Positions 17,951 to 35,475 of a stretch of 64,000 nucleotides of DNA are shown one piece after another. The notes under the pieces are model-generated. The model was given only the letters and a program-made list of their open reading frames with translations. It ran no database searches and had not been told where the DNA came from. The translations under genes were made by a program, and so were the position numbers. Where the stretch lies: NCBI GenBank assembly GCA_024761205.1, contig JAMASS010000004.1, positions 310,001 to 374,000 of the forward strand, read 5' to 3'. This stretch comes from Limisphaerales bacterium. GTDB lineage: Bacteria; Verrucomicrobiota; Verrucomicrobiia; Limisphaerales; AAA164-E04. Position 1 is the first letter of the stretch. Every line of letters starts with the position of its first letter.

Positions 17951-20221
17951 TTATCCCGTACGAAATCGGCGGAATCGCAGACGCAAGGCGTTCCCGATGA
18001 CGACAAGATCGGAAAGGCCCATGGCCGCCGCACACAGTAAGGGGCTGAGAAAGCCAAACGCGGCGAGGGGAATGCCGGCGGTGTTGTAGAAAAAGGCCCA
18101 GAACAGGTTTTGTTTGATGGTGCAGAGAGTCGCACGCGCCATGGTCAGGGCCTGAAGAATAGCTTGGATATCCGAGCGCAGCAGGATGATATCGGCCGAT
18201 TCCTTCGCAATGTCGGATGCCGCTCGGACAGCGATACCGAGATCCGCTTGTTCCAGGGCGGGGGCATCGTTGATGCCGTCACCCACAAAGCAAACTTTCT
18301 CGCCTGATTTTTGCAGAGTTTTGACGACGCTGGCTTTTTGTTCCGGCGAGGTATCGGCGTGCACAGCGGACGATGGGATGCCGAGTTCCCTCGCGATGGC
18401 CGTCGCCGTTGGTTGCTGATCACCGCTGACCATGGCAATCGAGACCTTCATTCGTTTGAGCGTCTGGACTACCTCGGCGGCGCCTGGTTTGATCGGATCC
18501 CGCAGGGCAATGACTGCGGCGATGCCCTGGGGTGTCGCGAGGGCGATCACGGTGGCGCCTTCACAAGTATGGTGACTAGCTAATTCTTGGGCTTGGCTAA
18601 CGTTGGCGCCAGTCTCGGCGAGCCACCGGAGGGACCCCAGACGATAGGTCTCCTCAACCCCTGAGATTGGGAGCCTTCGGCTGGCCTTGATCCCCTTCCC
18701 GGGGATTTCCTTCCAAGTGGTCCAATTGCCGGGTGAGTTCGCGCGACTGAGGTGTTTGGCGAGCGCTTTACTAAGGGGATGCTGGGAGGGGGCGGCGAGA
18801 GCGACGAGAATATCCGTCGGATCGGTCTGATCGTTGCCGAATGTCTCTATAACCACCACCTCCGGCTTGCCTTGCGTCAGCGTGCCGGTCTTGTCGAACA
18901 GGATTTGCGTGATCGTTCCCGAACGTTCGAGGGCGTTGCCGTCCCGGATGAGTACGCCTTGTTTTGCCGCGGCATTGATTCCAGCCATGATGGCCATAGG
19001 GGTCGCGAGCCCCATGGCACACGGACAGGCGATAATGAGAACCGCGGCGGAATGAACCACTCCCGCAGCCATCGCCGAAGCAGGAATCACTGTCGACCAA
19101 AGGTAGATGGAGAGCCAGGTATGGAGAGCGCCGGCTTGGGCGGGGCGCAACATCCACCACAGCATGGTGCCTAGGGCGATGAAAACAACGATTGGAACAA
19201 AGACGCTGCTGATCCGATCGGCGAGTTTCTGAACCTCAGCCCGACTGTTTTGAGCGCTTTCGACGACTTTGATGATTCGTGCCAGCACTGTGCCTGCTCC
19301 CGATCCGGTGACTTCAACCATTAACGGCCCGGAGAGGTTAATGGTGCCGGCATAGACCAGTTGTTCCGCGCTTTTTTCCACTGGGAGCGATTCACCAGTC
19401 AGCATGGACTCATCACAGATTGACGCTCCTTGAAGGATTTGACCATCAACGGAGACCTGCTCGCCCGGAGCGATTTGGATCCTTTGTCCCGGACTGAGAG
19501 ACGCAGCGTCGACTTCAACCGTCGTACCATCGTCTTGAACCAGCTTCGCTCGATTCGGCGTGAGAGCCATGAGGGATTCCAGCGCGCCCGATGCCTTGCT
19601 GACCACCAAGCCCTCGATGTAATGGCCGACACTCACAAAGGCGATGATGCCCACCGACTCCATGAAGTAGAGCGGCTGGGCGGCGTTGGTGAACAGGATG
19701 TAAACGCTGTAAGCGAAGGCGGTGCTGGAACCGAGACTTACTAGCGTGTCCATGTTGGATCGCCCCATTTTCAACTGGCGCCAGGCGCTGGCGTAAAAGC
19801 GGCTACCACAGAAAATTTGAATCGACAGGGCAACCACGAAGGCGACCCAGCGGAACCAAGCCTGATGGCGCCAGCCGAGAATCCACTCCGAAACCATAAA
19901 AAAGGCCAGTGCGACGACGGCAAAAACCATGCCGCTCCGCCATCCGGAACACGCCGGAATTTTTGTCGGCAGGAGACTCTCAGAGATCAGAGACGCTGCG
20001 TAGCCTGTCACTTCAAGCGCCTGAATGATTTTGGCGTCATCCCGCTGAGGGTCGCTTTGCCATCGGACCGAGGCGGATTCCTCTGACAAATAAACCGAGG
20101 CGTCCGAAACGCCGTCCACCGACAGAAGGGCTTCTCGAACCTGCTGGACACAGTACGCGCAGGTCATGCCGCTGATTTTGAAGACGGCTTCAGCGGACGG
20201 GTCTCTCGGGGGCAACTTCAT
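17951..20221 (-). CDS. copA: Copper-exporting P1B-type ATPase
   Basis: Called from the ATG at 20221, giving 756 residues starting MKLPPRDPSAEAVFK; an upstream in-frame ATG at 20347 would add 42 unlikely residues across terminator hairpins. One heavy-metal-associated domain carries GMTCAYC (C21/C24). Eight membrane helices are expected. Further motifs are TGES (275-278), CPC (399-401), DKTGT starting at D443, the HP pair (481-482) and GDGINDAP (647-654). These identify a P1B-1-like Cu(I) exporter of the inner membrane. The last helix reads MGLSD where classical CopA has M-x-x-SS, so one of the two usual Ser ligands is Asp; metal preference may differ. No copper regulator or chaperone gene is adjacent. 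A strong terminator lies about 40 bases upstream of the start. Confidence 0.93.
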   Translation of the reverse strand: MKLPPRDPSAEAVFKISGMTCAYCVQQVREALLSVDGVSDASVYLSEESASVRWQSDPQRDDAKIIQALEVTGYAASLISESLLPTKIPACSGWRSGMVFAVVALAFFMVSEWILGWRHQAWFRWVAFVVALSIQIFCGSRFYASAWRQLKMGRSNMDTLVSLGSSTAFAYSVYILFTNAAQPLYFMESVGIIAFVSVGHYIEGLVVSKASGALESLMALTPNRAKLVQDDGTTVEVDAASLSPGQRIQIAPGEQVSVDGQILQGASICDESMLTGESLPVEKSAEQLVYAGTINLSGPLMVEVTGSGAGTVLARIIKVVESAQNSRAEVQKLADRISSVFVPIVVFIALGTMLWWMLRPAQAGALHTWLSIYLWSTVIPASAMAAGVVHSAAVLIIACPCAMGLATPMAIMAGINAAAKQGVLIRDGNALERSGTITQILFDKTGTLTQGKPEVVVIETFGNDQTDPTDILVALAAPSQHPLSKALAKHLSRANSPGNWTTWKEIPGKGIKASRRLPISGVEETYRLGSLRWLAETGANVSQAQELASHHTCEGATVIALATPQGIAAVIALRDPIKPGAAEVVQTLKRMKVSIAMVSGDQQPTATAIARELGIPSSAVHADTSPEQKASVVKTLQKSGEKVCFVGDGINDAPALEQADLGIAVRAASDIAKESADIILLRSDIQAILQALTMARATLCTIKQNLFWAFFYNTAGIPLAAFGFLSPLLCAAAMGLSDLVVIGNALRLRFRRFRTG

Positions 20222-20260
20222 CAAAATCAAAAGAAATCCCAAATCACTGCGCAAACCAAC

Positions 20261-20344
20261 AAAAAAACCACGGCAACGTGGTTTGCCTGCAATGCTTCGC
20301 CGAGGGGCGGCAAAACACCCGCCCGGGGGAAAACCCCGAGCGGG
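20261..20344 (-). terminator. Rho-independent terminator just upstream of copA
   Basis: On the minus strand a GC-rich hairpin (20318-20344, CCCGC/GCGGG-type stem around four T) precedes a second hairpin AACCACG/CGTGGTT with loop TTGC (20266-20283). A run of seven T follows. Only about 40 bases separate the T-run from the copA ATG, leaving little room for a copA promoter. It either ends a vanished upstream gene (a C-terminal-like frame IDQRFPLEAASE stops near 20370) or acts as a leader attenuator for copA. The stretch 20345-20543 otherwise holds nothing I recognise. Confidence 0.7.
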
Positions 20345-20543
20345 CACAGCGGAAAGAAAGGCGAACGACTATTCGCTGGCGGCTTCGAGCGGGAAGCGTT
20401 GATCAATGCGCCACCGTCAATCCACAAAATGCGTTAAGATGGATTTGACATGGGTTAACACTTCACCGCGTCACCCAAAAAAATCTGCTTCTTGACCAAT
20501 TTGGATCAACAATTGCCGGTGAGGTTAAACCGCTTACATTCGG

Positions 20544-21288
20544 CTAAACGTTACCAATCTTATCAAGATATTGCAATTGCCCGCCTTGCCATTCAAACAC
20601 AATCTGTCCATTCTTCCGTTTAATAGAAACAGCAGACTCCATTGCAATAGGAAACAAAGGAATCACTGGCGATGGTTGTGTAACTATGGGGAGTGGAATC
20701 ATTGGAGGTGGAGCAGGTTTTACGAAAGGAACGTCAATTGACGCGAAAGGAAAACCAAGTGTCGATACAAGTTCGAATTGCCCAAATACATTAAACGAAT
20801 ATAATTCAAATATTACCATACTCCATCCATTCGGGGAATGAACCCGGGTATTTTCTGCCACTGCTGGTCGGAAATAATTGTAAAACGGATTATTTGGAGC
20901 CATGGCTGAAACCAGATATTCAGTGTTAGGTTTGAAGAAAAGCAGGGATGCCATCCGATAAGTATAAAGTCCAGCGTCAAGAGGAGTGAAACCTCCAATT
21001 AGATTTCCCAAAAGAGTGTCTGAAGATGAAACAGAAAAAGTAAAACCCCTCGGTGAACCGATTACCTCACTCATCCTCAGTTTTATATTATTTAAAATAT
21101 AAGCATATGGATTAACTCCTGTCTTAATAATCACTCCGCCTAAATGTTCGAAACCTAAATAATTTTCCATAAATGAATATAGAGGAGAGTCGCTAATTTG
21201 ATTGCTTAAATTACTAAGGACAATATCAGCTTTTGCCCAGACGCATTGCCCAAATCAAGCCGCTAACAATGCAAATATATATCTGATT
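20544..21288 (-). pseudogene. Choice-of-anchor-like secreted protein, 5' end cut by IS
   Basis: The intact frame from the ATG at 21170 is 208 residues, but coding continues upstream in the same frame as WAKADIVLSNLSNQISDSPL, the typical mature start of choice-of-anchor-type extracellular proteins. Before that, the signal-peptide-like hydrophobic run (YICIVSGLIWAM) lies in a different frame, and it is cut off at the IS1595-like element's left end at 21289. The body has the expected beta-sandwich pattern (SSSDTLLGNLIGGFTPLDAG, LYTYRMASLLFFKPNTEYLV). The C-terminus (VSIKRKNGQIVFEWQGGQLQ) resembles the terminal beta module of PVC surface proteins. Start codon and signal peptide are lost, so no exported product is expected. 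The sequence is much more AT-rich than its neighbours, suggesting transfer. Confidence 0.65.
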
Positions 21289-21333
21289 GGGAATTACATA
21301 CTTGATGCCATAAGGGAAGGTTGTTTTCATAAA
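21289..21333 (+). repeat. Left terminal inverted repeat, IS copy 1
   Basis: Matches the reverse complement of 22751-22795 over about 45 bases with a few differences, both ends reading GGGA-TTACATACTTGATGCC. It is also related to the ends of the second element at 60826 and 63625. Confidence 0.85.
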
Positions 21334-21349
21334 AAAAGTCGACAAAGTG

Positions 21350-22143
21350 TTTTATTCGAAGAGGAGCGATGGAAACACGGCGTGGAGTGCCCCAAGTGCC
21401 ACGCCCAAAACAGGCCGCAGAACGGCGCACGCGCCCGGGCGTTTGGCATTGCCGGCGTTGCCGGAAGGATTTCACCGTGCGGATCGGCTCGGTGTTCGAG
21501 CGCGGCCATGTCTCCTTGCAAACATGGCCTTGCGCCGTCTATCTGCTGAACATGGGGCGCAAGGGTGTCTCTTCATGGCAGCTTTTCAGGGTCTTGGGAG
21601 TGACACCCAAGACGGCTTGGTTCCTGGCGCATTGGCGAGGCCTGTGAGGAGGCTAAAATTTACCTCGAAGGCGTCATTGAGATAGATGAAACCTACCTAG
21701 GCGGCAAGGACGCGGCCCGGCGGGCAAGATGCCCGTGGCGGGGATGCGGGAAAGAAACGGACGGGTCTTGCTATTCCCGGCGGAGAGGGTGAGCAAGCCC
21801 GCCATGTTCGCTCTCATCCGCCGCCGCGTGGCACCCCCATTTACACGGATGACTTCCCCTCTTACACGGGGCCGGAGAGGCTCTGGTATCGGCAGCGCCG
21901 GGTGAATCATTCCGTCCGGCAATATGCGGAAGGGCAGGTCCGCACCAAGGACATTGAGAGCGTTTGGGCCGTGTTGAAGCGGGGATTTTACGGCACCATT
22001 GGAGCTGCAGGCATTGCTCCCGGTATCTGAACGAGTTCGCCTGGCGCATCAATCAAAGTGTGAACACGGCTGAAGATTGGCTGGGCACGGTGTGTCGAGG
22101 GACTTTTGGCAAGCGGTTGACCGGGGCGATGCTCACCAAATAA
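21350..22143 (+). pseudogene. IS1595/ISXO2-family transposase, multiply frameshifted
   Basis: Order of pieces: a zinc-ribbon start (RWKHGVECPKCHAQ, then WHCRRCRKDFTVRIGSVFE), a helical middle (NMGRKGVSSWQLFRVLGVTP), EGVIEIDETYLGGKDAARR with the first catalytic Asp, then YTDDFPSYTGPERLW with the second Asp, and RTKDIESVWAVLKRGFYGT with the third acidic residue. These define the DDE core of the IS1595 family. At least four frameshifts separate them. Compared with copy 2, about 100 bases between the left repeat and codon 20 are missing, removing the start. It cannot make an active enzyme. Confidence 0.85.
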
Positions 22144-22851: not shown

Positions 22852-22941
22852 AGGGAAACTCTGATTTAATCCTGAATTTTGCTGTTTTCGGTGATTTTTC
22901 CAGAGAAAACCAAATTTCCGGTTGTTAAGCAGAGTTTCCCT
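22852..22941. repeat. MITE-like 90-bp repeat, copy A
   Basis: Bounded by perfect 12-base inverted repeats (AGGGAAACTCTG / CAGAGTTTCCCT) and too short to encode a protein. An inverted copy of about 85 percent identity lies at 37950-38040. The stop codon (TAG) of the giant membrane-protein gene is formed at its right edge, so the repeat inserted at or trimmed that gene's end. Confidence 0.8.
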
Positions 22942-25900
22942 AGCTGCGTTGAATGAGTTTCTGCCTTAAGAACGTCACGGCGAATCCGCAGGCGGCGATG
23001 ATCACGATTAATACGGTGTTCGCCTGCGGTGACCTCGAACGGGCTTGAAGTCGCAAGGTGACATTATCCAAGGAATCGACTTGGACGCTTTTCAAGAACT
23101 TCAGCCGTTTTCCTTGCACTGGGAGGGTGACGTCAAAGCCGCGCGGTGCGGATGCGGTTTCGTCCTGTTGTTGGACGAGTCGGTTGGCGAGGCTCAGGAG
23201 GAGGTTCTCGTTCGACGGATCGGCTCGTCCGAGAACATTCTGAGCGGAAAGCTGCTGTTCGGGTGCTTCGGTGAAGAGATCGGCCTGGGCTCCGCTTTGC
23301 TTGTTCTGTTGCACCGTGATGCCAGCCATCGCCTGTCGGGTCTTCAGGGTTCTGAGTTGCACCCGAGCGTCTTCGTTGAAAGCGGCGTCATGTTGGGTGA
23401 GGTTGTAGGCGCCTTGGAAGGCATGGCGAGCCTCCACTTCGTTTCCTTGTTGCAGGAACCGATTGCCTCGTTCCAGCAGGGCTTCTGCTTCCTTTGTACG
23501 ATTTTGCCGGCGTGAGGTTTCATTGGTGAGGTAATCCTCAAGTTTGGCTAAGCGATGTGCGGCAACCGTGGCAGTCTCGGTCAGTTGTAGGTCGCCTTCC
23601 CAATCCTTGAGGTCCCATTGTTGATCGAGATAGACCGTCCAGGTCACCGAGTCCGCTGGAAGATCGAGGTTGATGCTTCTCAAGACGTTGTCGAGTTGGC
23701 CCGATGTCGTCTGGGCGGATGAATCTTGGATGTACACTTCGACCTGCGTGGGTTCGGAAGCATTAAAGTTATGACCAAAGGGGATTAGTAGGTTGTCGTT
23801 GTTGGTAAGTGCTGAGACGGTTTGTCCGTTGACCCGAGCAAACCAGAATTCGCTGTTCGAGGGTAAACTGACTTCGAGACTCCGTTTGCTACCGGGAGAG
23901 ATGGCGATGTCCGCCTTTGTGATGGTGCTCCCGTCCTGAGAGACAATGGTTGTCAAATCGAATTGGTTGATTTGGGCTGCCAGTGTTTGGGTGATTTGAT
24001 GTCGAGAGATGGTCACCGGGAGTTGAAAGTCCGGTGACACGGCTCGGAAACTGTATTCAACAGGCAGGCGATCGGGTAGATTTCGCCGAAGATGGCGCGG
24101 AACGTTGTGCCAGTCGGTCATGTAGAGCGAGGCGGGCAGCTGGGTGATGGTGGTCTGAAGTCGCCCCTGGGTCCGTAACGCGAGAAAGCTTCGCTGGAGA
24201 CTTGAATCGCTGAGGATCACACCTCGGATGGCGAACGGTGTCTGGTCGTCCAGAATGGTGGTTTGGTAGGTGATTGTCAGGCGATAGTTGCCGATAACAC
24301 GGCGTTGGAAACGGACCGTCCAGTCATCGCGGGATGTTTGTTGATTAGCGGAGGTGACCGAGTCGGCGATGTGCTCTCCTTCAAAGCGCACGTTGGTTGC
24401 TGTGTCCGGCAGGCTCAGATTTAGAGATTTGACGGCCGTGTTTTTGATCTGAAAATCGAGGAAGATAGTTGCATTCGCTTTGCCTTCCGTGAATTCGATG
24501 TCTTGGAGGGTGGCGACTTCGATCCAAGGGGCCACTTGCTCTACACTAAAGGCGAGGTTCCACTCGGCGTTCAAAAGATCGAAGGCTTGCGCGCCGTTTG
24601 TTTTAACGCCTCGGGCTCGCGGATCGAATTGCGAGACATTGTCGCGGGTGGTGGGCTGGAGCCGAACGCCCTGTTCGGGAACAATGAGCAGTTGGCCGCG
24701 TTGTCGATTGGATTCCTGGATAGTCACTTTTGGCGCCACCCAGTTGGCACTCGGCGAAATGCCCGGACCGGATAAGGTAAGTTCAAATTGTAGGGCGCCT
24801 AAGTACTTCCTCTTAAGATGAAGCGTGACGGTTCGGATGTTGTTGTGGACCGCCTGGGTCCAGTGACTTAATTGATTGCCGCTGACACTGTCGATGTTCA
24901 TCCCGGCCGGAAGGATGAAGCTGAGGTTGAAGATGCCGGCGCGGGAGATTTGAGCCTCAATGGTGGTCGCCAGTAACGTGCGGTCTTCTCCGATTGAAAG
25001 TCGCTCGTTGGTGGTTACGGTGATGTGGGGAGCGACTGGGATGAGGGCGAGTTCGAGGGATACGGTCGGCTCGTTGTAGCGAAACGCGCGCCGAATAGCT
25101 ACGTTGGGGAACTGCGCGCGGCACAGATCGAGGAGCGCCCGACGGAAATCTTGAGGATCAATCGGCACGAGTCCGGTCGTCACGGTGTTGCTGAGTTGCG
25201 CCTCGACGCCAGTGGCGATCCCGATGGTGCCCACTTGGCCGGAGGTGCTTTCAACGGTTGGAAAGGACAGGGTCGCAGTGTAAGGGAGCGGGCCGGTGAT
25301 CCATTGGCTCCGAATGCGAATCAAAAACGGTTGCGATTGTGGTTTGTTGAGGTCGATTTTTAATCGTCCGTTTTCCGGTTCAAAACGCCATTGAGAGAGG
25401 TCATTGGTGAGGACGCCGTTGATTGTCATCTGAGACGGTACGGCGACATTGATTTGTGAAACTTCACCTTGAGCGGGTCGAATAGCGATATCCTGGAATC
25501 CCTCGACGAGGCCGGAGCTGGGCACTAACAAGGTGTGAATCTCGGCGAAGTAGACCGGAGTTTCTTCGCTTCGGTTTCGTTGCCGGGGTTGCCACTCGAT
25601 TTCAATAGCGTTCGTTGGTTTAGGAATGACCGTCCAATAGCTGAACTTGTCATCCGGTGGTCGAGTCGGCGTGGTCGAGATTGCTTGGGGAGCTGTGAGA
25701 TCGGCGTTGGCTTCCGCGAGGGTGATGTCGATTCGGTTGATCAAACCGTACTGTGTTGGGAGTTGGAATCTCGCGGGGGTGTTCGTTTGATCTACTGGAA
25801 TCTGATAATCAAATTGCACCAATTGTAGTCCGTCTTGCAAGGCCATCAGGGTCTTGATCTGTGGTCCGGCGGCAGCGTCTGATAGCTTGGAAGTTGTAGC

Positions 25901-28900
25901 GTCGAACGACACTTGGGTGAGGACCCCCGGTGCGTGTAACAGAGGAATCCATTGTCCAGCACGGGCGTTCCAATGGACGGTCACCTTACCGGCGGCAAAC
26001 CCGTTTTCGATTGTGATCTGTTGCTCGACACGGTCGGGGATTTGGTGTTCATCTTGCCTGTGATTTTCGGCTGACACAGGCGTTGTGTGAGCCAGAAACA
26101 TCCCGGTAATCAGCAAGGGTGCTGCCGCGGAAATAGGCTCACGAGCTCGCCAAGCCGCTTGCATTCCGGGAATGACTAGGTGCCGAATTAGGAACGCGAT
26201 GATCACGAGTAATGAGATCGGTCCCCCGATGGGCCAGGAGAGCACGCCAAAGAGGCACAAGAGCCAAGCGGCAAGTTCGATGTAGGGGCGTTGGACTGCG
26301 GGTAGCTTGGCAGCTGAAAGTCCTAAGAGTAGGGCGGCGAGAAGAACGGGCCAGCCATAGGAGGCGATGTCACTGGCGATAAAATTAATCGGTCGATTTT
26401 CGATGACCGTGTAGGTCGTCTTGGTTGGCGATGTGAAGGAGGCATTGAATTCTAAATCTCCTTCCGTGGGCGGGAGATGATTCAGGGAATGGAGGGATAC
26501 CGAGATGGTTACGATCACGCTTATGAGCAATGCCAACGCACCTAAAGTGATTCCAGTGACGTGCCGCCATCTGAAGTCACAAATCTGTGGCTTGCGGCTC
26601 AGGTAGAAGATCACGATGGCTAGCACTAGCAATGCTAGGGCGAGGAGCAGTCTTGCTGCATTCCGGGGGTTTTGCGGTTCACGACTTCCCAGCAGTTGGC
26701 GCAGTTGCAGGAAGCCATTCGACGGTTGGCCGGAATTCATGGGAATGATGTTGCCTTCCAAAAATCGAAGCCGCTGCTGGGGAGCGGCTTCCATGTTCCA
26801 TTTCGAATAGAGCATGGGAACGGAGAGTTGGGGCAAGGTTACTCGAACCGGACTCGCTTCCTGCGAATTGGCGGCTATGCTGACTTCTACCCGGCGCAGT
26901 TCACCCGAGGGGGAATCGGCGCCAAGGGGGATTAGGCTCGTGTTATCGGCGGTGATGGGGATGACTTTCTTGTGGTCTACTGTCGCTGACCACAGTTGGC
27001 TGCCTGCGGGTAGGCTCAGCGCGAAGTGCGGAGAGCCGGTGGATTTGACGTAATACTTGGCGGTTGTCACGGTTTGCCCGTCTTGTGAAATCCGGGTCGT
27101 GATTTCCGCGCGGTCGACGATCTGTTTCACGGAATTTCCCTCATTTAGGGTGGACAGACCAAGATTGAGGGTGAAGGGGCGTTGGCTGTATTGGAAGACG
27201 GCGAGGACCGGGTGGCTGAGCAGGAGCCGGTGTTCGGGTGAGAGTTCTTCGGGAGCGAGTTCGATGAGTTGGGCAATTCCGTCTCTGCGGTCCATCTGAA
27301 TTTGGCGACTGCTCGATAGAATGATGGTTCCTTGTTCGGAAGTGGTGTTGAGTGGCGACGCTCCGGTGGCGTTGAGCCTGTCCGCTTCGTCTTGAAACGT
27401 TCGTTCATAGGAAACCAGAAGCGTGTAGGGGCCAATGATGGGTGACTGGAGAACAACGTCATAGCCGGTTTCGGTTTGGGTCCAGTTTCGGACTTCTTCT
27501 CCGGTGAACTCGATGTTTTGATACTCCGCGGGAATGTTAAATTGCAAGGTATCAACGGGCGCACCGGAGATGGCGAATTGAATGAGACTGCTGCCATAGA
27601 TCAGCCCGCTGCCGATGGTGTAAAGGTGAGTGCAGTCGGCCTGAAGCGCCTGCGGAATCGGGGTGGCGTTCAAGGCAATGCCCCAATCATTGTCGGTAAT
27701 GCGAAACGCCGCCTGAAGTCCCTCGGTTTGTTTTGGGAAATAAACGGTGGCGATCTCCGACACGCCATTGAACGTGTTGGGGGTCAGGCGGAAGCCTTGA
27801 ACCGAGGAAACGCCGATATGACCGCGGATTTGACGTGTTGCCTGCGGTGATAAATTGCTAAGGGTCCACAGGGTTCTGGCCAGCGTTTCATTTTTTTCGA
27901 GCCGTAGTCTGATTTGCTGTCGTCCGAATACCGGTTGGTTGAATTCCAGGCGAAGCTCCGACTTGCCGATGTTTTCCGTTTGGGTGATGAAGAAGTCCGC
28001 GAGTTGGTGGGAACTGACTTCGGCGATGACATAGTCGGAGGGGATGCCAACCACATATTCGCGAATGGGTGCTTCTCGAATCTCCAACTCGAAGTCCGCC
28101 TCGATACGCGTTCCATCGTGCCCCAAATGATACGCGAACAGGGCGGAGGCAGTGATTTCCGGTTGGATGTCATCGGCTTGAATGGTGAGTGAATAGTCAG
28201 TTGAGGAATGCCGGAACGCGAATCGTTGCGACGGATAAGCCTCTCTGAGTTCATTCTCAGAGTCTGCTTTTGTGTTGGGAGGAGAAACTCGGGAGAGCCC
28301 TGCGGTGGTGGTGTTGGCAAGCCGTACTGCTCCTTCATTTACGACTTCAATCATGCCATGGTGCCGCGTGCTGCCCAGCGGAGTGATGCGAATGGGCTGT
28401 GTCTCCAGGGGGAAAGGGCCGAGGGTTGAGAGTGTGGAAACTGTCAGACGGCAACTTTCCGTTTGGGGTCGGTTGAATCGAATGATCAGCTCTCGGGACT
28501 GGGGATCATCGGTGGGGTTGAGTTCCCACGATAGGATGTCGGTGCCAGTAACCGTAGTGATTTCGCCTTCACCCTCAACGGTCAGCTTGAGTGCATCCAA
28601 TTCTCCCTGCATCACGGTGACGACCGTGATGCAGCTCTGGCGCATCACCCCGGTGCCGATGCTGATGGTTGAGAGGGCCTCGGTGTTGTAGAACAGTTTC
28701 GATGATCGTTCTTCCTGAAGATTGCGCCAGGCGAAGACGGCTTCTCCATTTGCGGGCAGGAAGGTGTGGAAGCCATCATCCTTAGCTTCCACAAGTCCGC
28801 CATTTTCAAGATGAAATTCCGTCGCCTCTTCAAAGCCGGTCAGTGAAACTGGGAGAAGATTGGCTGTGGGCAGGTGGAAGGTCGCCCGCTTCCATCCATC

Positions 28901-29902
28901 GTTCTCGGTGATTTTTGCCCTGAATTCAAAAGTGATTGGGTAAGAGCCGGGTCTCTCGAGGTGGATTATGTAACCGTTCGGTTCCAGCGTGATGGAACAA
29001 TGCTCGGGCAAGGTGACTTCTGTGATGGCTGTTTGCCCGCCGAGCAGGAGATGGCTGGCGCCTCGAGGGTTCTTGGTGGTTGCGGTTGTGGTGACCCTAA
29101 ATTCTAGGGAGTGTTCAGTATATTGGCCTTCAGTCGCTACCTGGTTCATCACAACCCGGAGAGCATCCGGGTCCAAGAGGCGAACATGGACGGCGGCTCG
29201 GTAGTGAGTTCCAAGGAAACGGAATCCCCGGACGCTTTCGGTTAGGGTGGTCTGAGGTTCTGCTTCTAGGGGGCGCACCGGCGTCAGCCCGATGCTTTCC
29301 TTGAGATCGATTGCGAGGTCCGGTGTATGTCTGACTGTGATATCACCGCTTGCTAGAGCGGGGAATTCGAATTGCAGCCCGTGTAGGTCAAAATCGAAGG
29401 GCAGATCATCGATCTCGGTTTCGGTCTCGACCGCGACGCTTAGCGCGTCCGACTCAGCTTCAGATTCATCAAACTCAAGCACCAGTGATTCTTTGCTGTC
29501 TTCGGTTGACCGCACACTCCAACTCTTCAGACCGGTTCCGGTGACTCGGGTCGGCCACGACCTGCCGCTCAGTCCGAGGTTGATGGTGTCAAATTCTCCT
29601 TGGATTCGTTTGAGAGTGATCTTTGTGCGGCTGCGTAAGGTGTTGGAATCTACATGGATTTCTCTTTCGGCCTGAGAGGTGTAGAGGAGTCGGGCTTTGT
29701 CGTTATGTTTGTCGAGTAGGTCGGCGATGATGGTGAACTGGGCCTTGTCTTGGCTGATCTGTCCGGAAACCGCAATGTTGTCGGCCTCGACCGATTGTTG
29801 CGGGTTCTGAGCAAGCAGTGTCATGGCGAAAGTCGCTTCGAGCCAAGCGGCAATTGCCCGTTGTTTGAGTTGAGTTGAGAGAAACAGCCCGGTTGTTTGC
29901 AT
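22940..29902 (-). CDS. Giant membrane protein of unknown function, internally duplicated
   Basis: 2320 residues in one open frame. A signal-like hydrophobic region lies near the N-terminus. Residues to about 1060 are predicted beta-rich exported sequence. A block of membrane helices spans about 1080-1250, then a signal-peptide-like segment ending PVSAENH (about 1260-1285) starts a second beta-rich half. One membrane helix and a basic tail close the protein (VLIVIIAACGFAVTFLRQKL). The two halves share a module: RAEITTRISQDGQTVTTAKY with GSQLWSATV near 924-1003, and DLTTIVSQDGSTITKADIAI with NSEFWFARV near 1976-2060. It therefore looks like two tandem paralogous units fused in one gene. It lies 48 bases after the VWA gene, so the sigma factor, VWA protein and this protein are probably one transcript. 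The last codons meet a MITE-like repeat. Envelope location is inferred; no function is known to me. Confidence 0.85.
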   Translation of the reverse strand: MQTTGLFLSTQLKQRAIAAWLEATFAMTLLAQNPQQSVEADNIAVSGQISQDKAQFTIIADLLDKHNDKARLLYTSQAEREIHVDSNTLRSRTKITLKRIQGEFDTINLGLSGRSWPTRVTGTGLKSWSVRSTEDSKESLVLEFDESEAESDALSVAVETETEIDDLPFDFDLHGLQFEFPALASGDITVRHTPDLAIDLKESIGLTPVRPLEAEPQTTLTESVRGFRFLGTHYRAAVHVRLLDPDALRVVMNQVATEGQYTEHSLEFRVTTTATTKNPRGASHLLLGGQTAITEVTLPEHCSITLEPNGYIIHLERPGSYPITFEFRAKITENDGWKRATFHLPTANLLPVSLTGFEEATEFHLENGGLVEAKDDGFHTFLPANGEAVFAWRNLQEERSSKLFYNTEALSTISIGTGVMRQSCITVVTVMQGELDALKLTVEGEGEITTVTGTDILSWELNPTDDPQSRELIIRFNRPQTESCRLTVSTLSTLGPFPLETQPIRITPLGSTRHHGMIEVVNEGAVRLANTTTAGLSRVSPPNTKADSENELREAYPSQRFAFRHSSTDYSLTIQADDIQPEITASALFAYHLGHDGTRIEADFELEIREAPIREYVVGIPSDYVIAEVSSHQLADFFITQTENIGKSELRLEFNQPVFGRQQIRLRLEKNETLARTLWTLSNLSPQATRQIRGHIGVSSVQGFRLTPNTFNGVSEIATVYFPKQTEGLQAAFRITDNDWGIALNATPIPQALQADCTHLYTIGSGLIYGSSLIQFAISGAPVDTLQFNIPAEYQNIEFTGEEVRNWTQTETGYDVVLQSPIIGPYTLLVSYERTFQDEADRLNATGASPLNTTSEQGTIILSSSRQIQMDRRDGIAQLIELAPEELSPEHRLLLSHPVLAVFQYSQRPFTLNLGLSTLNEGNSVKQIVDRAEITTRISQDGQTVTTAKYYVKSTGSPHFALSLPAGSQLWSATVDHKKVIPITADNTSLIPLGADSPSGELRRVEVSIAANSQEASPVRVTLPQLSVPMLYSKWNMEAAPQQRLRFLEGNIIPMNSGQPSNGFLQLRQLLGSREPQNPRNAARLLLALALLVLAIVIFYLSRKPQICDFRWRHVTGITLGALALLISVIVTISVSLHSLNHLPPTEGDLEFNASFTSPTKTTYTVIENRPINFIASDIASYGWPVLLAALLLGLSAAKLPAVQRPYIELAAWLLCLFGVLSWPIGGPISLLVIIAFLIRHLVIPGMQAAWRAREPISAAAPLLITGMFLAHTTPVSAENHRQDEHQIPDRVEQQITIENGFAAGKVTVHWNARAGQWIPLLHAPGVLTQVSFDATTSKLSDAAAGPQIKTLMALQDGLQLVQFDYQIPVDQTNTPARFQLPTQYGLINRIDITLAEANADLTAPQAISTTPTRPPDDKFSYWTVIPKPTNAIEIEWQPRQRNRSEETPVYFAEIHTLLVPSSGLVEGFQDIAIRPAQGEVSQINVAVPSQMTINGVLTNDLSQWRFEPENGRLKIDLNKPQSQPFLIRIRSQWITGPLPYTATLSFPTVESTSGQVGTIGIATGVEAQLSNTVTTGLVPIDPQDFRRALLDLCRAQFPNVAIRRAFRYNEPTVSLELALIPVAPHITVTTNERLSIGEDRTLLATTIEAQISRAGIFNLSFILPAGMNIDSVSGNQLSHWTQAVHNNIRTVTLHLKRKYLGALQFELTLSGPGISPSANWVAPKVTIQESNRQRGQLLIVPEQGVRLQPTTRDNVSQFDPRARGVKTNGAQAFDLLNAEWNLAFSVEQVAPWIEVATLQDIEFTEGKANATIFLDFQIKNTAVKSLNLSLPDTATNVRFEGEHIADSVTSANQQTSRDDWTVRFQRRVIGNYRLTITYQTTILDDQTPFAIRGVILSDSSLQRSFLALRTQGRLQTTITQLPASLYMTDWHNVPRHLRRNLPDRLPVEYSFRAVSPDFQLPVTISRHQITQTLAAQINQFDLTTIVSQDGSTITKADIAISPGSKRSLEVSLPSNSEFWFARVNGQTVSALTNNDNLLIPFGHNFNASEPTQVEVYIQDSSAQTTSGQLDNVLRSINLDLPADSVTWTVYLDQQWDLKDWEGDLQLTETATVAAHRLAKLEDYLTNETSRRQNRTKEAEALLERGNRFLQQGNEVEARHAFQGAYNLTQHDAAFNEDARVQLRTLKTRQAMAGITVQQNKQSGAQADLFTEAPEQQLSAQNVLGRADPSNENLLLSLANRLVQQQDETASAPRGFDVTLPVQGKRLKFLKSVQVDSLDNVTLRLQARSRSPQANTVLIVIIAACGFAVTFLRQKLIQRS

Positions 29903-29950
29903 GGTGCTTCCTAAAGAGTTTTCGTTGATAAAATGGGATCCGAGCTTGGG

Positions 29951-32900
29951 TTAGAGTCCGGCCAGGCTTTGGGCTTGGAGGACCATGTTTTCGAATTGAG
30001 AGACCGCAGGATCAAGTATGTTGCCGGATTGTGTTTGGGAGATGAGTTGCTGGATGGCTTTTAAATCGACGTCTTGACTATAGGGAATCCCTGCCAGCCA
30101 TTCGGCGAAGATTCCCGAGGCCGCCGCCAGCTTCATCGCCGCTGAGGCGTGTTTGAGATCCACGACTGGTTCCTGATACGGAACGCTCCGCGAGAGTTCC
30201 CGGTAGGCCTTGGTCTTCGGGTCTTGATAACGCAATGAAAGGTCGCCAATGGGGCCAGAGCCTTCGGGATCTATCATAAGCACGTATAAGGCGGTTCCGG
30301 TTTCGGCAGCTGCTAACTCCGCAGCATCGGTCGTGCCGTCGCGAAAGGCTTCCTTTTTGAGCTGGTGCCTGGCGTATCCGATCTGCCGGTAACTAGTGAC
30401 CCGTTCCTCGTTGAAGGTGATCTGCACTTTGACATTCTTTGCGGCGACGTTGAGTACTCCGGTGAGTTGTCGGCTGAAATCGGTTTCCACCTGGGTGATA
30501 TCATTCAGAAAGGCGTAGCGGCCATCTCCGTTTCTAGTAAGCGTCTCGAGCCGATGATCATCGTAGCCATCCCATCCGATACCAAAGCAGTCAAGGGCGA
30601 TGCCGGCCTTGCGATGAGACTCGACCGTCAAGCGAAGCGATTCAGCATCCGTATTGCCGAGATTGGCCGCACCGTCCGTTAGAAGAATCACTCGATTCAG
30701 CCCCTTTGGCATAAAGTGTTTTTTCGCGATCGCATATGCCGTAACTAAGGCGGCTTCCAGGTTTGTGCCGCCTTCAGGAATGAGATTACCAAGCTGATTG
30801 AGCGCTTGCATGGCTTGGTTTCCAGGGAGCCCGTCCGCCCACAGACGTGTTTCGCGAGCAAAGGCAATAATGCTGATGCGATCCTGATCGAGCAGACTGC
30901 TGACCAGAGACTTCAGGGCTCGGCGGCTGATCGCCTGACGATCGGGACGTTCCATGGATCCGGAGCGGTCGAGCAGGATGACGACGTTTAACGGGGTTTG
31001 ACGGCTGCGACCGGTTGATTTTGTGCGCACACTGATGCGGAGAATGTCTTGGCGGTGCTCAAAAGGAAACCGGGCACGTTCGGTGTGAACGGCGATGGGC
31101 TCATCTGATTGGGTGATCGGATCATGATAGGCGAAGGCGTTGAAAAATTCCTCCGGTCGAATAGTAGAGGGGGCTGGCAACACACCTTGATCCAAACTGG
31201 CGGCCGCCAGCCGAAATGAGACGTCACTCACGTTCAGGCTGAAAGTGGATGTCGGATTGGCCCTCGTGTCTTGTTGGCGATTGAACGATGGTTCGGTCTC
31301 TCTTTGTCGTTCGACCGATCTTTCTAGTTGTTTGAGTCCCTTGGATAGTTTGGTTCGATCACGGAGTGATCTCGAGGTCTCAACTTTCTTCTTTACGGCC
31401 AGGTGATCGACCGAGCGGTCATTGACTTCGGCAATTTCATTGGCGGCATCTTCTGCGGCGGTAGACGCAGACTCTTGTTCGTCGATCACGACGTTACCCA
31501 GGGAGAATGCCGGATCCTCCGTAGGTGATGCACCGCGTGTCCACAGTTCTACTTGGTCGATGGTTGCTTTTAGGTCGGACAATTTCGCGAGCTTGGGTTC
31601 AAGACCAAAGTTCTGGGCGACTGAAAGCTCACGTGCGGGGGCGTCTGATTCCTCACGACCGGATGCCTCCAGATTGCTCTTTGACTCGGTCAATATCCCT
31701 GCCAACAGGGTGACTTTGTCTTCCGCCCTCTCCCGCTCTAGGCTTTGGTTCTGGCGGCCGAGGTCTTCGAGTTCGGCGGGGCCGTGGAGACTTTCTTGCA
31801 AAGCTAGGCCGTGCCCCGCTTGAAAGGAAGATGCCAGGCTGTCGAGATCGTCCGATTCACCGGCGCTGGGGTGATCAAAAAGGAGTCTTGATCCATCTGC
31901 TGACGCTGCGAAGCCTTTGGTGAGGGCCTTGTTGTCGGAAGGCGGCGAATTTTCTTGTTCGCCCATCTTTTGAAAGGCCCAGACGCTCTCCGTGGTGACT
32001 CCAGAATCACCGAGGGCCATTGAGCCGAAATCTTTGTTGGCTGAACGTCCCCGTGCGAGGCCGCTGACCGGTTCCGACAGTAAGCCGCCGCCGAAACCTA
32101 TGCCAGCCGCGCCGCCATAGCGGAAACGCTCACTATAGGCTGCTCCTCCAAACTGATCTCCAGCTGCCCCTGTGGCCCTGAGGCCCCAAGAGGCATTAGG
32201 GCGGCTTGGCTCACCGCGTGCTGCCATCTGTGGTTTTATTGCGTCGATAGACTTTCCCGCAGTCATCGGTCCGGTGACCACGCTTTCAACACCGAGTCCG
32301 TCACCGAAATAGACTCCGAGAGCGTGGCCGGCGTTTTTCTCTCGGGCCAGCTCGATCTCTGGTTCCACCTCTTTGAAGGTCTTGTAGTCCTGATCGCCGT
32401 CCGGAAGCCGCGCCAAAACCTCAAGCGATTCGTCGGCGGCGCGGATGGCTTCCGAACGAGTGCGGGCGCGCCCCTCGGCTTCTTGGAGGCGTTCACCAAG
32501 GAGTCGGGAGTCTCTCGACTTGGCCAGCTGCTGCTCGACTGCTCTTTGTGATTCGATGGAGTGGGGCGATGCTTTGACTTGGGACGGTTCCGGGGCGGCT
32601 TGGGCGTAACCGCGAGCGTAAAAGTAGTCGGCGCTATTCGCCGGTAGTTGAGGAACAGCCTCCTTGTCACGAACTTCGCCTAGAGCCCGACCAAAACTCA
32701 GTTCCGCAGCTGCCTTGTTCTCTGTGTCGGCATCTACTGAGGGCACTGCAATTGGCGCGGGCATTGCGAGTTCAACCGGCGGTCTGACTTTAGCGACAGC
32801 CTGAGCTGAGATGTTGTAGCGGGGCATCATCGGTTGATTGGCATCCAATTCCTTTTCCTCGCGCTCGGCTTTGGGTAACAATTCAAATCCAACGTTTGGT

Positions 32901-33451
32901 GGTTGGGTCGGTCGGGTGGCTGAGGTGCTCATTTCAGCCCATTGTCCAGACTGACGGGCGAGCGGTAATGCTTGCGGTGACTGAGTTAGAGAGGCTTCGG
33001 AGGGGGCCTCTGGAGCATAGGTACGCGTGGCGTCTTTGTGCGCCGCTGCGATTTGGACCGACCCGCTGGGTAGTGCCAGAACTGTGAGGATCACGAGTAA
33101 CCCGGCAGCGATTCCCATCGGCACGTACCACGGGACGGTGTGCTTGGCACCCGTTCCCGTTATAGAGACCTGGGTCGGCTCCTCTGCCAGCTGAGCCAGG
33201 AGAGTTTGGCGACGATCGTTGGAGAATCGTAGTTCATCGCTGGGCTTCGCAACTGGCTGTTTGATGGAATCGGGAACGGCTTGGTGCAGCAAGTCGATGG
33301 TTTTCTTGAGCCGAGCGGCGAGGACTGCCAGTTCGGGCTCAGCGTTGATCTGGTCTTCTACCTCGGCGTGGTCCTCCGGAGGAAGTTGTCCTAGGAGGTA
33401 GGCCGTGATCCGGGATTCGGGATCGTTGGGTGGGAATAAGGACTTGTTCAT
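29951..33451 (-). CDS. YfbK-like VWA protein with N-terminal anti-sigma-like domain
   Basis: 1166 residues. The N-terminus (DPESRITAYLLGQLPPEDHA, helical) resembles zinc-less anti-sigma domains of PVC bacteria. A membrane helix follows at about 108-128. Residues 130-780 are low-complexity and coiled. A von Willebrand A domain spans about 815-995, with a complete metal site: D828-x-S830-x-S832 (LLDRSGSM), T896 (EGGTNL) and D926 (LLTDGAA). The C-terminal region to 1166 (DFSRQLTGVLNVAAKNVKVQ and on) corresponds to the YfbK/DUF3520 part. The gene overlaps the sigma-factor gene by four bases (ATGA), so translation is coupled. The likely role is membrane-bound control of the sigma factor together with a metal-dependent adhesion or assembly function outside; the target is not shown. 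Confidence 0.88.
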   Translation of the reverse strand: MNKSLFPPNDPESRITAYLLGQLPPEDHAEVEDQINAEPELAVLAARLKKTIDLLHQAVPDSIKQPVAKPSDELRFSNDRRQTLLAQLAEEPTQVSITGTGAKHTVPWYVPMGIAAGLLVILTVLALPSGSVQIAAAHKDATRTYAPEAPSEASLTQSPQALPLARQSGQWAEMSTSATRPTQPPNVGFELLPKAEREEKELDANQPMMPRYNISAQAVAKVRPPVELAMPAPIAVPSVDADTENKAAAELSFGRALGEVRDKEAVPQLPANSADYFYARGYAQAAPEPSQVKASPHSIESQRAVEQQLAKSRDSRLLGERLQEAEGRARTRSEAIRAADESLEVLARLPDGDQDYKTFKEVEPEIELAREKNAGHALGVYFGDGLGVESVVTGPMTAGKSIDAIKPQMAARGEPSRPNASWGLRATGAAGDQFGGAAYSERFRYGGAAGIGFGGGLLSEPVSGLARGRSANKDFGSMALGDSGVTTESVWAFQKMGEQENSPPSDNKALTKGFAASADGSRLLFDHPSAGESDDLDSLASSFQAGHGLALQESLHGPAELEDLGRQNQSLERERAEDKVTLLAGILTESKSNLEASGREESDAPARELSVAQNFGLEPKLAKLSDLKATIDQVELWTRGASPTEDPAFSLGNVVIDEQESASTAAEDAANEIAEVNDRSVDHLAVKKKVETSRSLRDRTKLSKGLKQLERSVERQRETEPSFNRQQDTRANPTSTFSLNVSDVSFRLAAASLDQGVLPAPSTIRPEEFFNAFAYHDPITQSDEPIAVHTERARFPFEHRQDILRISVRTKSTGRSRQTPLNVVILLDRSGSMERPDRQAISRRALKSLVSSLLDQDRISIIAFARETRLWADGLPGNQAMQALNQLGNLIPEGGTNLEAALVTAYAIAKKHFMPKGLNRVILLTDGAANLGNTDAESLRLTVESHRKAGIALDCFGIGWDGYDDHRLETLTRNGDGRYAFLNDITQVETDFSRQLTGVLNVAAKNVKVQITFNEERVTSYRQIGYARHQLKKEAFRDGTTDAAELAAAETGTALYVLMIDPEGSGPIGDLSLRYQDPKTKAYRELSRSVPYQEPVVDLKHASAAMKLAAASGIFAEWLAGIPYSQDVDLKAIQQLISQTQSGNILDPAVSQFENMVLQAQSLAGL

Positions 33452-33993
33452 TTGAAGACCCCGTTTTTTTGGATTTCGGAGGCGAGGGATTTCAGGAGGC
33501 GGTGGAGTTGATAACCAACATTGCTTACGCTGAGGCCGGTCTGACGACTGATTTCCTTGTAGGAAAGATCTTCCTCGAATTTGAGCCGGAGTAGCTCACG
33601 TTTTTTCGGTGCTAGACTCCGCAAGACCAGACGGATCTGACCGATCGCCTCCAACCGAGCGATGTACTCGTCAGGCATCGGCTCCGGAGCGGCTTGTTCT
33701 GTGCCGTTTTTTTCCGGTTCGCCCGAATTGAGGGGAACGACGCGGTTCTCTTTGCAATGATGGTTGACTGCCATGTTGTGGATGGTTCGGTAGAGCCATG
33801 GCTTGGGCTCGGTGACGGTGTCTTGTCTGGTCTGTAGTTTTAGAAAGGCTTCTTGAACCAAATCTTGAGCGACCTCTGGGCGCTTCACTAGTTGATAGGC
33901 GTAGCGGAGGAGCGGCCCCTCCAGTAACTCGAACCAGCCCGCGAGGGATAAGTTTTCGTGGTCGTTTGCTTTCAGTGAATCGGCCACAGGCAT
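33448..33993 (-). CDS. ECF-type RNA polymerase sigma factor
   Basis: 181 residues. Region 2 is visible as LLRYAYQLVKRPEVAQDLVQ with EAFLKL, the sigma2 core helix. Region 4 is a helix-turn-helix (LAPKKRELLRLKFEEDLSYK, then EISRQTGLSVSNVGYQLHRL). It lacks regions 1 and 3, as expected for an extracytoplasmic-function factor directing RNA polymerase to a small regulon. It is first in an operon with the anti-sigma/VWA protein, overlapping it by four bases, so the two are probably a sigma/anti-sigma pair. The stretch 33994-34474 upstream should hold an autoregulated promoter, but the recognition sequence cannot be named. Confidence 0.93.
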   Translation of the reverse strand: MPVADSLKANDHENLSLAGWFELLEGPLLRYAYQLVKRPEVAQDLVQEAFLKLQTRQDTVTEPKPWLYRTIHNMAVNHHCKENRVVPLNSGEPEKNGTEQAAPEPMPDEYIARLEAIGQIRLVLRSLAPKKRELLRLKFEEDLSYKEISRQTGLSVSNVGYQLHRLLKSLASEIQKNGVFK

Positions 33994-34474
33994 CTGTCAG
34001 CAACTAAGCATTTTCCGATGGATTACGATTGGGTTGCTCAATCCGGTGATTTGTCTGGTTTCGTTTGGACTAGTTAGGTATATGACAAGTGCCCGTTCAG
34101 AATCTTAGACACTTTTTTGGGATGGAGAAAATATTCACCAAAGCGGTGAACATTTGAGCGATTTAATCGTCTTTTTGTGCGAGGGGTTAGCACGGGTTCG
34201 AGAGATCAATTCTCGGTGAATTCATCACGGATCGGAATCGAAGTGCAAAAAGCATTAGATTATTCTCGACATCATTTCGAATTTTTAGGAATGTCTTAGA
34301 CTATTCGATTAGGGGTCTATGGTCGCCAATATTGGCATTGACTAGGTCTCATTGATCCCGCGAGTGATCGGCGACCGAAGAATCCCGGATTTGGCCAATC
34401 CGCATTTACGATGACTGCTTTGGATTGAACATTTGTCGAATTGGCTTGTCACAGTTGAGGTAGGTATTTGAATT
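33994..34474. promoter_or_regulatory. Divergent intergenic region between ECF sigma operon and small gene
   Basis: 480 bases without a gene, AT-richer than its surroundings, lying between two divergent genes and so expected to contain both promoters. A GAGGTAGG ribosome binding site precedes the small plus-strand gene. I see no repeat, RNA gene or unmistakable promoter boxes. Confidence 0.5.
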
Positions 34475-34818: not shown

Positions 34819-35475
34819 TCAATGAAGTAACTCATTCCGTTTTTTGGGGCACCGGCCAATTTCGCGAATCCAAGACTCCGTCAAGAGACAGGCGATGTTG
34901 TTGGTTTGTTGTTGGCTGAGCTGGTCCGCCATTGGAAAGTCATTTGGCGATTGTTCCCACTGGGCCAGAACTCGCCGGTCGGCTTCGGTTAGTTGAATGA
35001 CATCTCTTGCGGGTTGGAGCCCTAGAATTGCGAGCAGCTGCCACTCAAACCACAAGGTGAAGGCGGGGCCTTGCTGCCCTTGTTCCGCGAGATTCAACGA
35101 CCGTTGAAATAGATCAAAGATTTCCGGCGTCGGCGTGTTCTGTTCCGTGGTGCGTCGGACCAAATCGACAAAGTAAGCGACTTGGTTGAGACCGGCCACC
35201 GAGCATCGGATACTTTGGGGCGTGGTCTTCAGCTCGACTTCTTTTAGCGTATAAAGATCGGAGTTTAGACTTTGTCGAAACGTGATCGACGCAAAAAAAA
35301 GCAAATCCAGCTTCCCCGATAGTGCTGACTTTTCCCGGAGCGCACCTCGAGCAACAGTCGAAATCCTTCCCTTGCTGTCTGTCAACCACTCGACGATCAG
35401 GCTGGTATCCGTTAGGCGAAAGGTTCGGATGATGTAGCCGTTGGTTCGACCCTCGAGTTGGCTTGAGGTTGCCAT
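34819..35475 (-). CDS. recO: DNA repair protein RecO
   Basis: 218 residues. The N-terminal OB-fold is recognisable (TNGYIIRTFRLTDTSLIVEW, then SKGRISTVARGALREKSALS), followed by the helical RecO domain (AYFVDLVRRTTEQNTPTPEI, FTLWFEWQLLAILGLQP). RecO loads RecA onto SSB-coated gaps with RecR in the RecFOR pathway. No Cys4 zinc site is visible; many RecO proteins lack it. The gene lies 24 bases behind the DUF6797-type gene on the same strand, so they may share a transcript, ending at the terminator 34733-34766. Confidence 0.88.
   Translation of the reverse strand: MATSSQLEGRTNGYIIRTFRLTDTSLIVEWLTDSKGRISTVARGALREKSALSGKLDLLFFASITFRQSLNSDLYTLKEVELKTTPQSIRCSVAGLNQVAYFVDLVRRTTEQNTPTPEIFDLFQRSLNLAEQGQQGPAFTLWFEWQLLAILGLQPARDVIQLTEADRRVLAQWEQSPNDFPMADQLSQQQTNNIACLLTESWIREIGRCPKKRNELLH

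Follow-up and report, generated by a model that had tools for sequence, protein, structure and literature searches.

The window analysed here is a stretch of 64,000 nt from a Limisphaerales bacterium (AAA164-E04; assembly GCA_024761205.1, contig JAMASS010000004.1, positions 310,001-374,000 of the forward strand). The initial annotation had distinguished within it three co-directional genes, linked by a four-base overlap and a 48-base gap, and these coordinates were confirmed, with all three genes located on the minus strand (Table 1). They encode (i) an ECF sigma factor, (ii) a membrane anti-sigma/VWA protein (hereafter the VWA protein) and (iii) a giant membrane protein. The sigma and VWA open reading frames share the bases ATGA, and a Shine-Dalgarno-like AGGA is placed just 5' of the ATG of the giant gene. 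A terminator scan revealed no terminator-like hairpin within the VWA-giant gap (the matches fell elsewhere), and a sigma-70 promoter scan gave nothing of use. In the window the triad is neighboured by recO and a heavy-metal P-type ATPase gene (34819-35475 and 17951-20347, respectively), which are not conserved beside the operon. A remnant of an IS1595-type transposase, with a zinc ribbon match below the cut-off (E 1.3e-4) and an apparently broken frame, lies downstream of the giant gene (21202-21685).

Table 1. Features of the sigma-VWA-giant locus; positions refer to the window, residues to the respective protein.
Feature	Position	Strand	Basis
ECF sigma factor, 181 aa	33448..33993	-	Pfam Sigma70_r2 and r4_2; TIGR02937 E 1e-24
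Membrane anti-sigma/VWA protein, 1166 aa	29951..33451	-	Domain scans, hydropathy, MIDAS alignment
Giant membrane protein, 2320 aa, two homologous halves	22940..29902	-	hhalign of halves, probability 100, E 9.5e-50
Promoter-like element	34078..34112, core 34082-34108	-	CTAAGATT-N12-TTGTCAT; -35 TCTAAGAAA-like, -10 GTGTCAT-like
VWA protein: anti-sigma-like N-terminal domain, residues 1-60, without zinc motif	33272..33451	-	NF052375 E 1.9e-6, sub-cut-off
VWA protein: single TM helix, residues 109-127	33071..33127	-	Hydropathy 2.29
VWA protein: hypervariable extracytoplasmic linker, residues 131-720	31292..33061	-	Length and identity spread in 40 relatives
VWA protein: vWF_A domain, residues 723-805	31037..31285	-	PF12450 E 6.6e-13
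VWA protein: VWA domain, residues 820-995, with MIDAS	30467..30994	-	PF00092 E 4.6e-14
VWA protein: MIDAS D828xS830xS832...T896...D926	First motif 30956-30970	-	Invariant in 40/40 relatives
VWA protein: YfbK_C domain, residues 1000-1166	29954..30454	-	PF12034 E 4.6e-25
Giant: N-terminal arm, five beta-sandwich domains A-B-B-B-C, residues 245-1059	26726..29170	-	AlphaFold pLDDT 88; hhalign
Giant: REAPxRE, residues 609-615, candidate contact site	28058..28078	-	Largely kept in VWA-coupled giants
Giant: TM bundle, residues 1083-1247, about five helices	26162..26656	-	Hydropathy; helices in AlphaFold model
Giant: internal signal-like TM, residues 1261-1278	26069..26122	-	Sequence inspection and alignment, hydropathy
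Giant: C-terminal arm, five beta-sandwich domains A-B-B-B-C, residues 1290-2115	23558..26035	-	pLDDT 87; hhalign
Giant: helical (TPR-like) insert, residues 2121-2250, within last domain	23153..23542	-	Model helices 832-960
Giant: NEDARVQ, residues 2176-2182, candidate contact site	23357..23377	-	Largely kept in VWA-coupled giants
Giant: C-terminal TM, residues 2294-2312	22967..23023	-	Hydropathy 2.3

Domain scans showed that the sigma protein possesses sigma-70 regions 2 and 4 and lacks region 3, which fits the ECF type, and its gene is preceded, at the motif level, by a subgroup-specific -35/-10 element of its own. The element, TCnTCTAAGAAA-N12-GTGTCnT with fixed spacing, precedes the sigma gene at 40 of the 54 loci, the expectation from shuffled sequence being 0.5. 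The motif was first spotted by eye in the same loci and was hence retested with a PWM on loci outside the derivation. When trained without the genus of the window, the PWM ranked the window copy first in the 64 kb, both strands included (13.7 vs. 8.6 bits), and it recovered the site in the non-derivation loci L170, L171, L172, L191, L193, L194, L200, L201 and L202. The motif was not recognised at seven loci of other classes (L186-L190, L192 and L199), at which the operon itself is kept. The sequence comparisons strongly support the assignment of this motif as a predicted promoter dedicated to this ECF subgroup.

It had been anticipated that an ECF recognition sequence would be shared by the operon and sites elsewhere; such a motif does stand before the sigma gene, but its occurrence is practically limited to this operon. 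In the 58 genomes, which belong to the same order or are closer still, 12 of 18 exact matches are located at a sigma-VWA-giant operon and the reversed control pattern yields 24 matches, so no wider regulon is visible by motif in these genomes or in the bacterium's own genome. Because related genomes contain the motif at hardly any other place, the sigma factor is probably devoted mainly to its own operon. ECF factors often have regulons, and a loose form of the pattern occurs at two other sites of the own genome (C22:61313 and C34:236982). It is nevertheless very improbable that the sigma factor runs a broader envelope-stress regulon in which the giant is one member, held in the operon for convenience: matches outside the operon are no more numerous than those of the reversed control pattern, and the conservation of the three genes is strict.

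The VWA protein had been described as combining an anti-sigma-like N-terminus with a complete MIDAS outside the membrane, and both features were recovered, the former through sub-cut-off matches. Its N-terminus matched the models NF052375 and PRK13920 (E 4.9e-5), both under the curated cut-off, and zf-HC2 only at E 0.2; in the 40 relatives NF052375 and PRK13920 gave 11 and 4 matches (sub-cut-off), and zf-HC2 gave 3. The anti-sigma-like domain of the window protein contains His28 and His56 and no Cys, and zinc-free domains are common among class I anti-sigma factors (PMC7406223). The gene adjoins that of its partner sigma factor, the genomic coupling expected of a class I anti-sigma. According to hydropathy, the single TM helix separates this N-terminus from the MIDAS, which is placed across the membrane and does not vary among the relatives compared. 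The vWF_A, VWA and YfbK_C domains, with the MIDAS complete, assign the protein to the YfbK/VWA family.

The linker connecting the TM helix with vWF_A ranges in the 40 relatives from 214 to 1135 aa and shows 13% identity, compared with 45-56% in the flanking domains. Domain scans recognised no domain in the linker of the window protein. In the isolate genome of Chthoniobacter flavus (L085:5307-9944), the linker includes 458 residues related to the type IV pilus outer-membrane protein Amuc_1098 (E 2.2e-90), a segment composed of TPR plus a secretin N-domain-like part; long Amuc_1098-like segments also occur in L069 and L091. The linkers of other relatives carry an EpsF-like chain-length coil, autotransporter repeats or, in L171, a FliL domain. 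A second VWA protein was found in the same genus (L169:8430-12428, genome G001); it shares 64% identity in the conserved part, lacks the anti-sigma N-terminus and has neither a sigma nor a giant gene adjoining.

The giant protein gave no Pfam hit and no recognised adhesion domain in the domain scan, and a sequence search against PDB yielded no match. Its annotation as a membrane protein agrees with hydropathy, which revealed the TM bundle and the C-terminal TM; a signal peptide is unconvincing by the same measure. The two halves are homologous and, in the hhalign comparison, correspond domain by domain in the order A-B-B-B-C. On this alignment, the giant is an internal duplication, with two five-domain halves joined by the membrane bundle. 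The arm models reached mean pLDDT values of 88 and 87, but with a pTM of 0.46-0.49, which makes the domain-to-domain arrangement uncertain. The last, membrane-proximal domain of each arm is similar to the N-terminal domain of M1 aminopeptidases (N-terminal arm: Z 12.9, 3.2 Å, 150 aa; C-terminal arm: Z 14.3, 3.3 Å, 157 aa), and the arm domains next to it resemble the Ost1/ribophorin I fold (VIA Z 14-16, with large rmsd over several domains). Judging by the aligned ranges and the secondary structure, the last hairpin of the M1-like domain apparently resumes beyond an inserted segment, which consists of two TM helices in the first half and of TPR-like helices in the second. The likeness to Ost1/ribophorin I and M1 appears to be one of fold only; identity is about 10%, and the giant has ten tandem domains and no peptidase domain. 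An M1 peptidase activity, suggested by the fold, was rejected because the giant lacks HExxH; GxMEN and any Pfam hit are absent as well. Amuc_1098 matched the giant only at E 0.008 over 80 residues, short of a full-length match above the cut-off. Local integrin- and macroglobulin-like beta-sandwich matches were also obtained in the arms, and those to integrins, with low TM-scores, may reflect a common fold. The giant probably serves as a scaffold of the envelope that extends from the inner membrane to the periplasm.

The 58 genomes and the GTDB species collection (best 80 of 264 relatives) were searched for relatives of the giant, which were found in Verrucomicrobiota (Limisphaerales, Chthoniobacter, Akkermansiaceae and Opitutae) and Planctomycetota (Rhodopirellula and others). 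The order sigma-VWA-giant, whose conservation across Verrucomicrobiota had been put forward as a check, was found on one strand in 49 of 49 loci with room upstream, Planctomycetota included. These comprise 47 plain triads and two loci with a split VWA open reading frame (L065 and L116), the remainder being cut by contig ends and the GTDB part covering the best 80 relatives. Clustering of all flanking open reading frames revealed nothing conserved at the giant loci except sigma, VWA and giant. When the phylum was sampled evenly, the model of the second half of the giant matched 40 of 240 genomes; of the full giant loci in this sample 17 were inspected, and 14 of these have the triad. Of the 58 genomes, 22 contain both the giant and the giant-type VWA and 34 contain neither (Fisher 5e-14), and in the other two (G009 and G053) the giant occurs by itself, its contigs being fragmentary. 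The distance matrices of the proteins are correlated (sigma-giant r 0.925, VWA-giant r 0.952; Mantel 0/2000); such correlation is expected from vertical inheritance as a unit and does not suffice to prove contact. The VWA-giant gap of the relatives has a median of 40 bases and does not exceed 100 bases in 42 of 55 cases, and no conserved promoter or terminator was found between the two genes, so a terminator-promoter gap belonging to the giant gene alone, which would have spoken against a common system, did not emerge. The other argument against it, that the giant is not co-conserved with the pair, fails for the main family and applies to a minority of giants without adjoining sigma and VWA genes. 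That sigma, VWA and giant form one inherited unit is well supported.

The uncoupled giants comprise those of L195-L197 and L203 as well as the type II family of L049-L058, which is diverged (about 23% identity) and has the same ten-domain plan but no sigma/VWA pair; because such giants occur, the giant can work without the pair next door. No VWA match was found in the genomes of L195, L196 and L197; genomes with an uncoupled giant and without any VWA match are G206, G232 and G181. Among the 58 relatives, no giant-less genome contained a giant-type VWA that carries an anti-sigma domain. As giants exist without the pair and, in these relatives, no giant-type pair exists without a giant, the giant appears to be the output and sigma/VWA its regulator. 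In two type II loci (L051 and L054) a distant ECF sigma gene is located divergently upstream.

Coupled and uncoupled giants differ at R609, P612 and R614 (REAPxRE), R693, and E2177, R2180 and Q2182 (NEDARVQ), residues almost invariant in the former and mostly lost in the latter, in an alignment at about 20% identity that includes few independent lineages. Coupled giants down to 20% identity retain both motifs, some of them changed, whereas in similarly divergent uncoupled giants the motifs are lost or scrambled; those of L191, L193 and L194 are coupled, yet have the motifs partly degraded. Because of this distribution, REAPxRE and NEDARVQ are considered candidate contact sites for the regulator.

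Since the three genes travel together across two phyla under one dedicated promoter motif, the triad looks like a self-contained envelope control circuit. The reading that we favour, with a probability of roughly 0.5, is a homeostatic loop: the VWA protein would monitor the giant and adjust how much of it is expressed. We infer from the sequence that the N-terminus of the VWA protein would keep the sigma factor at the inner membrane, and that sensing would be direct, the extracytoplasmic MIDAS having as its ligand an acidic side chain in the giant, possibly one of the REAPxRE glutamates or E2177/D2178 of NEDARVQ. If the giant were missing, titrated or rearranged, the VWA protein would change state and free the sigma factor, which would lead to more giant being made from the single promoter. 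We regard the unit with high confidence, the regulation with moderate and the stimulus with low confidence.

It is also possible, though at less than even odds, that sigma and VWA drive giant production upon another envelope signal, received via the VWA domain or the linker, and that VWA and giant make no contact. The linker is hypervariable and appears as if reading other systems, because in relatives it carries pieces of other envelope machines, but the giant motifs track the presence of VWA, and giant and VWA are nearly always lost jointly. An unlikely alternative is that adhesion or tension of the envelope, which the giant would transmit or anchor, is perceived by the VWA domain and leads to release of the sigma factor; the complete MIDAS outside the membrane and the long multi-domain arms with their integrin- and macroglobulin-like matches would suit such a role, but the present data do not point to this stimulus, the integrin TM-scores are low and perhaps due to a common fold, and the giant has no recognised adhesion domain. 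An extension of the homeostatic loop, which we consider doubtful, is that the MIDAS anti-sigma counts or inspects the giant through REAPxRE/NEDARVQ while the linker captures segments of envelope machines as baits, so that one sigma factor would read envelope assembly in both phyla; the type IV pilus outer-membrane protein and polysaccharide export coil segments of the linkers would then be baits integrated in the sensor.

Membrane-bound class I anti-sigma factors paired with ECF sigma factors include RpoE/RseA, SigW/RsiW and SigK/RskA (PMC7406223). The triad shares with them a sigma gene followed by an overlapping gene for a single-TM protein with an anti-sigma-like cytoplasmic N-terminus, and a promoter motif of the autoregulatory type. 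It differs in its sensor, composed of vWF_A-VWA-YfbK_C and a hypervariable linker, in the near-obligate third gene and in showing little sign of a regulon beyond the operon. The vWF_A, VWA and YfbK_C trio with full MIDAS is that of the YfbK family, but here it is fused behind an anti-sigma-like domain and a TM helix and coupled to an ECF sigma factor and a giant. Bat operons contain MoxR, the VWA proteins BatA/BatB, BatD and the TPR proteins BatC/E. As there, a membrane VWA protein stands beside a multi-beta-domain, TPR-containing membrane protein, which may at most be an analogy of working, since the conserved neighbourhood has a sigma factor instead and no MoxR ATPase or second VWA. Membership in the Bat operons was rejected, given that no MoxR AAA+ or BatA/B pair adjoins and only three genes are conserved.

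No prior description of the sigma-VWA-giant unit was found in the open-access literature, although an earlier mention is still possible. The triad can be described as an ECF sigma factor with a membrane anti-sigma sensor, coupled to an apparently undescribed giant family. It would represent an ECF system strictly conserved in two phyla with unusual envelopes and seemingly dedicated to one Pfam-less family. Since the regulator, motif, output and candidate residues are named, the question of what sigma-VWA pairs respond to is directly testable in cultivated strains, carriers of the system being Chthoniobacter flavus and Rhodopirellula.

Sigma-VWA pairs without a giant were also observed. Those of L174-L178 are preceded by a related -35, but the -10 reads CCGTT instead of GTGTC, which is consistent with a separate subgroup at the level of sequence. 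Another pair without a giant (L180) is present in the own genome of the window. Locus L171 (genome G044) contains two tandem sigma-VWA pairs, in which a separate promoter motif belongs to each sigma gene, and these pairs are possibly continuous with a giant located on another contig.
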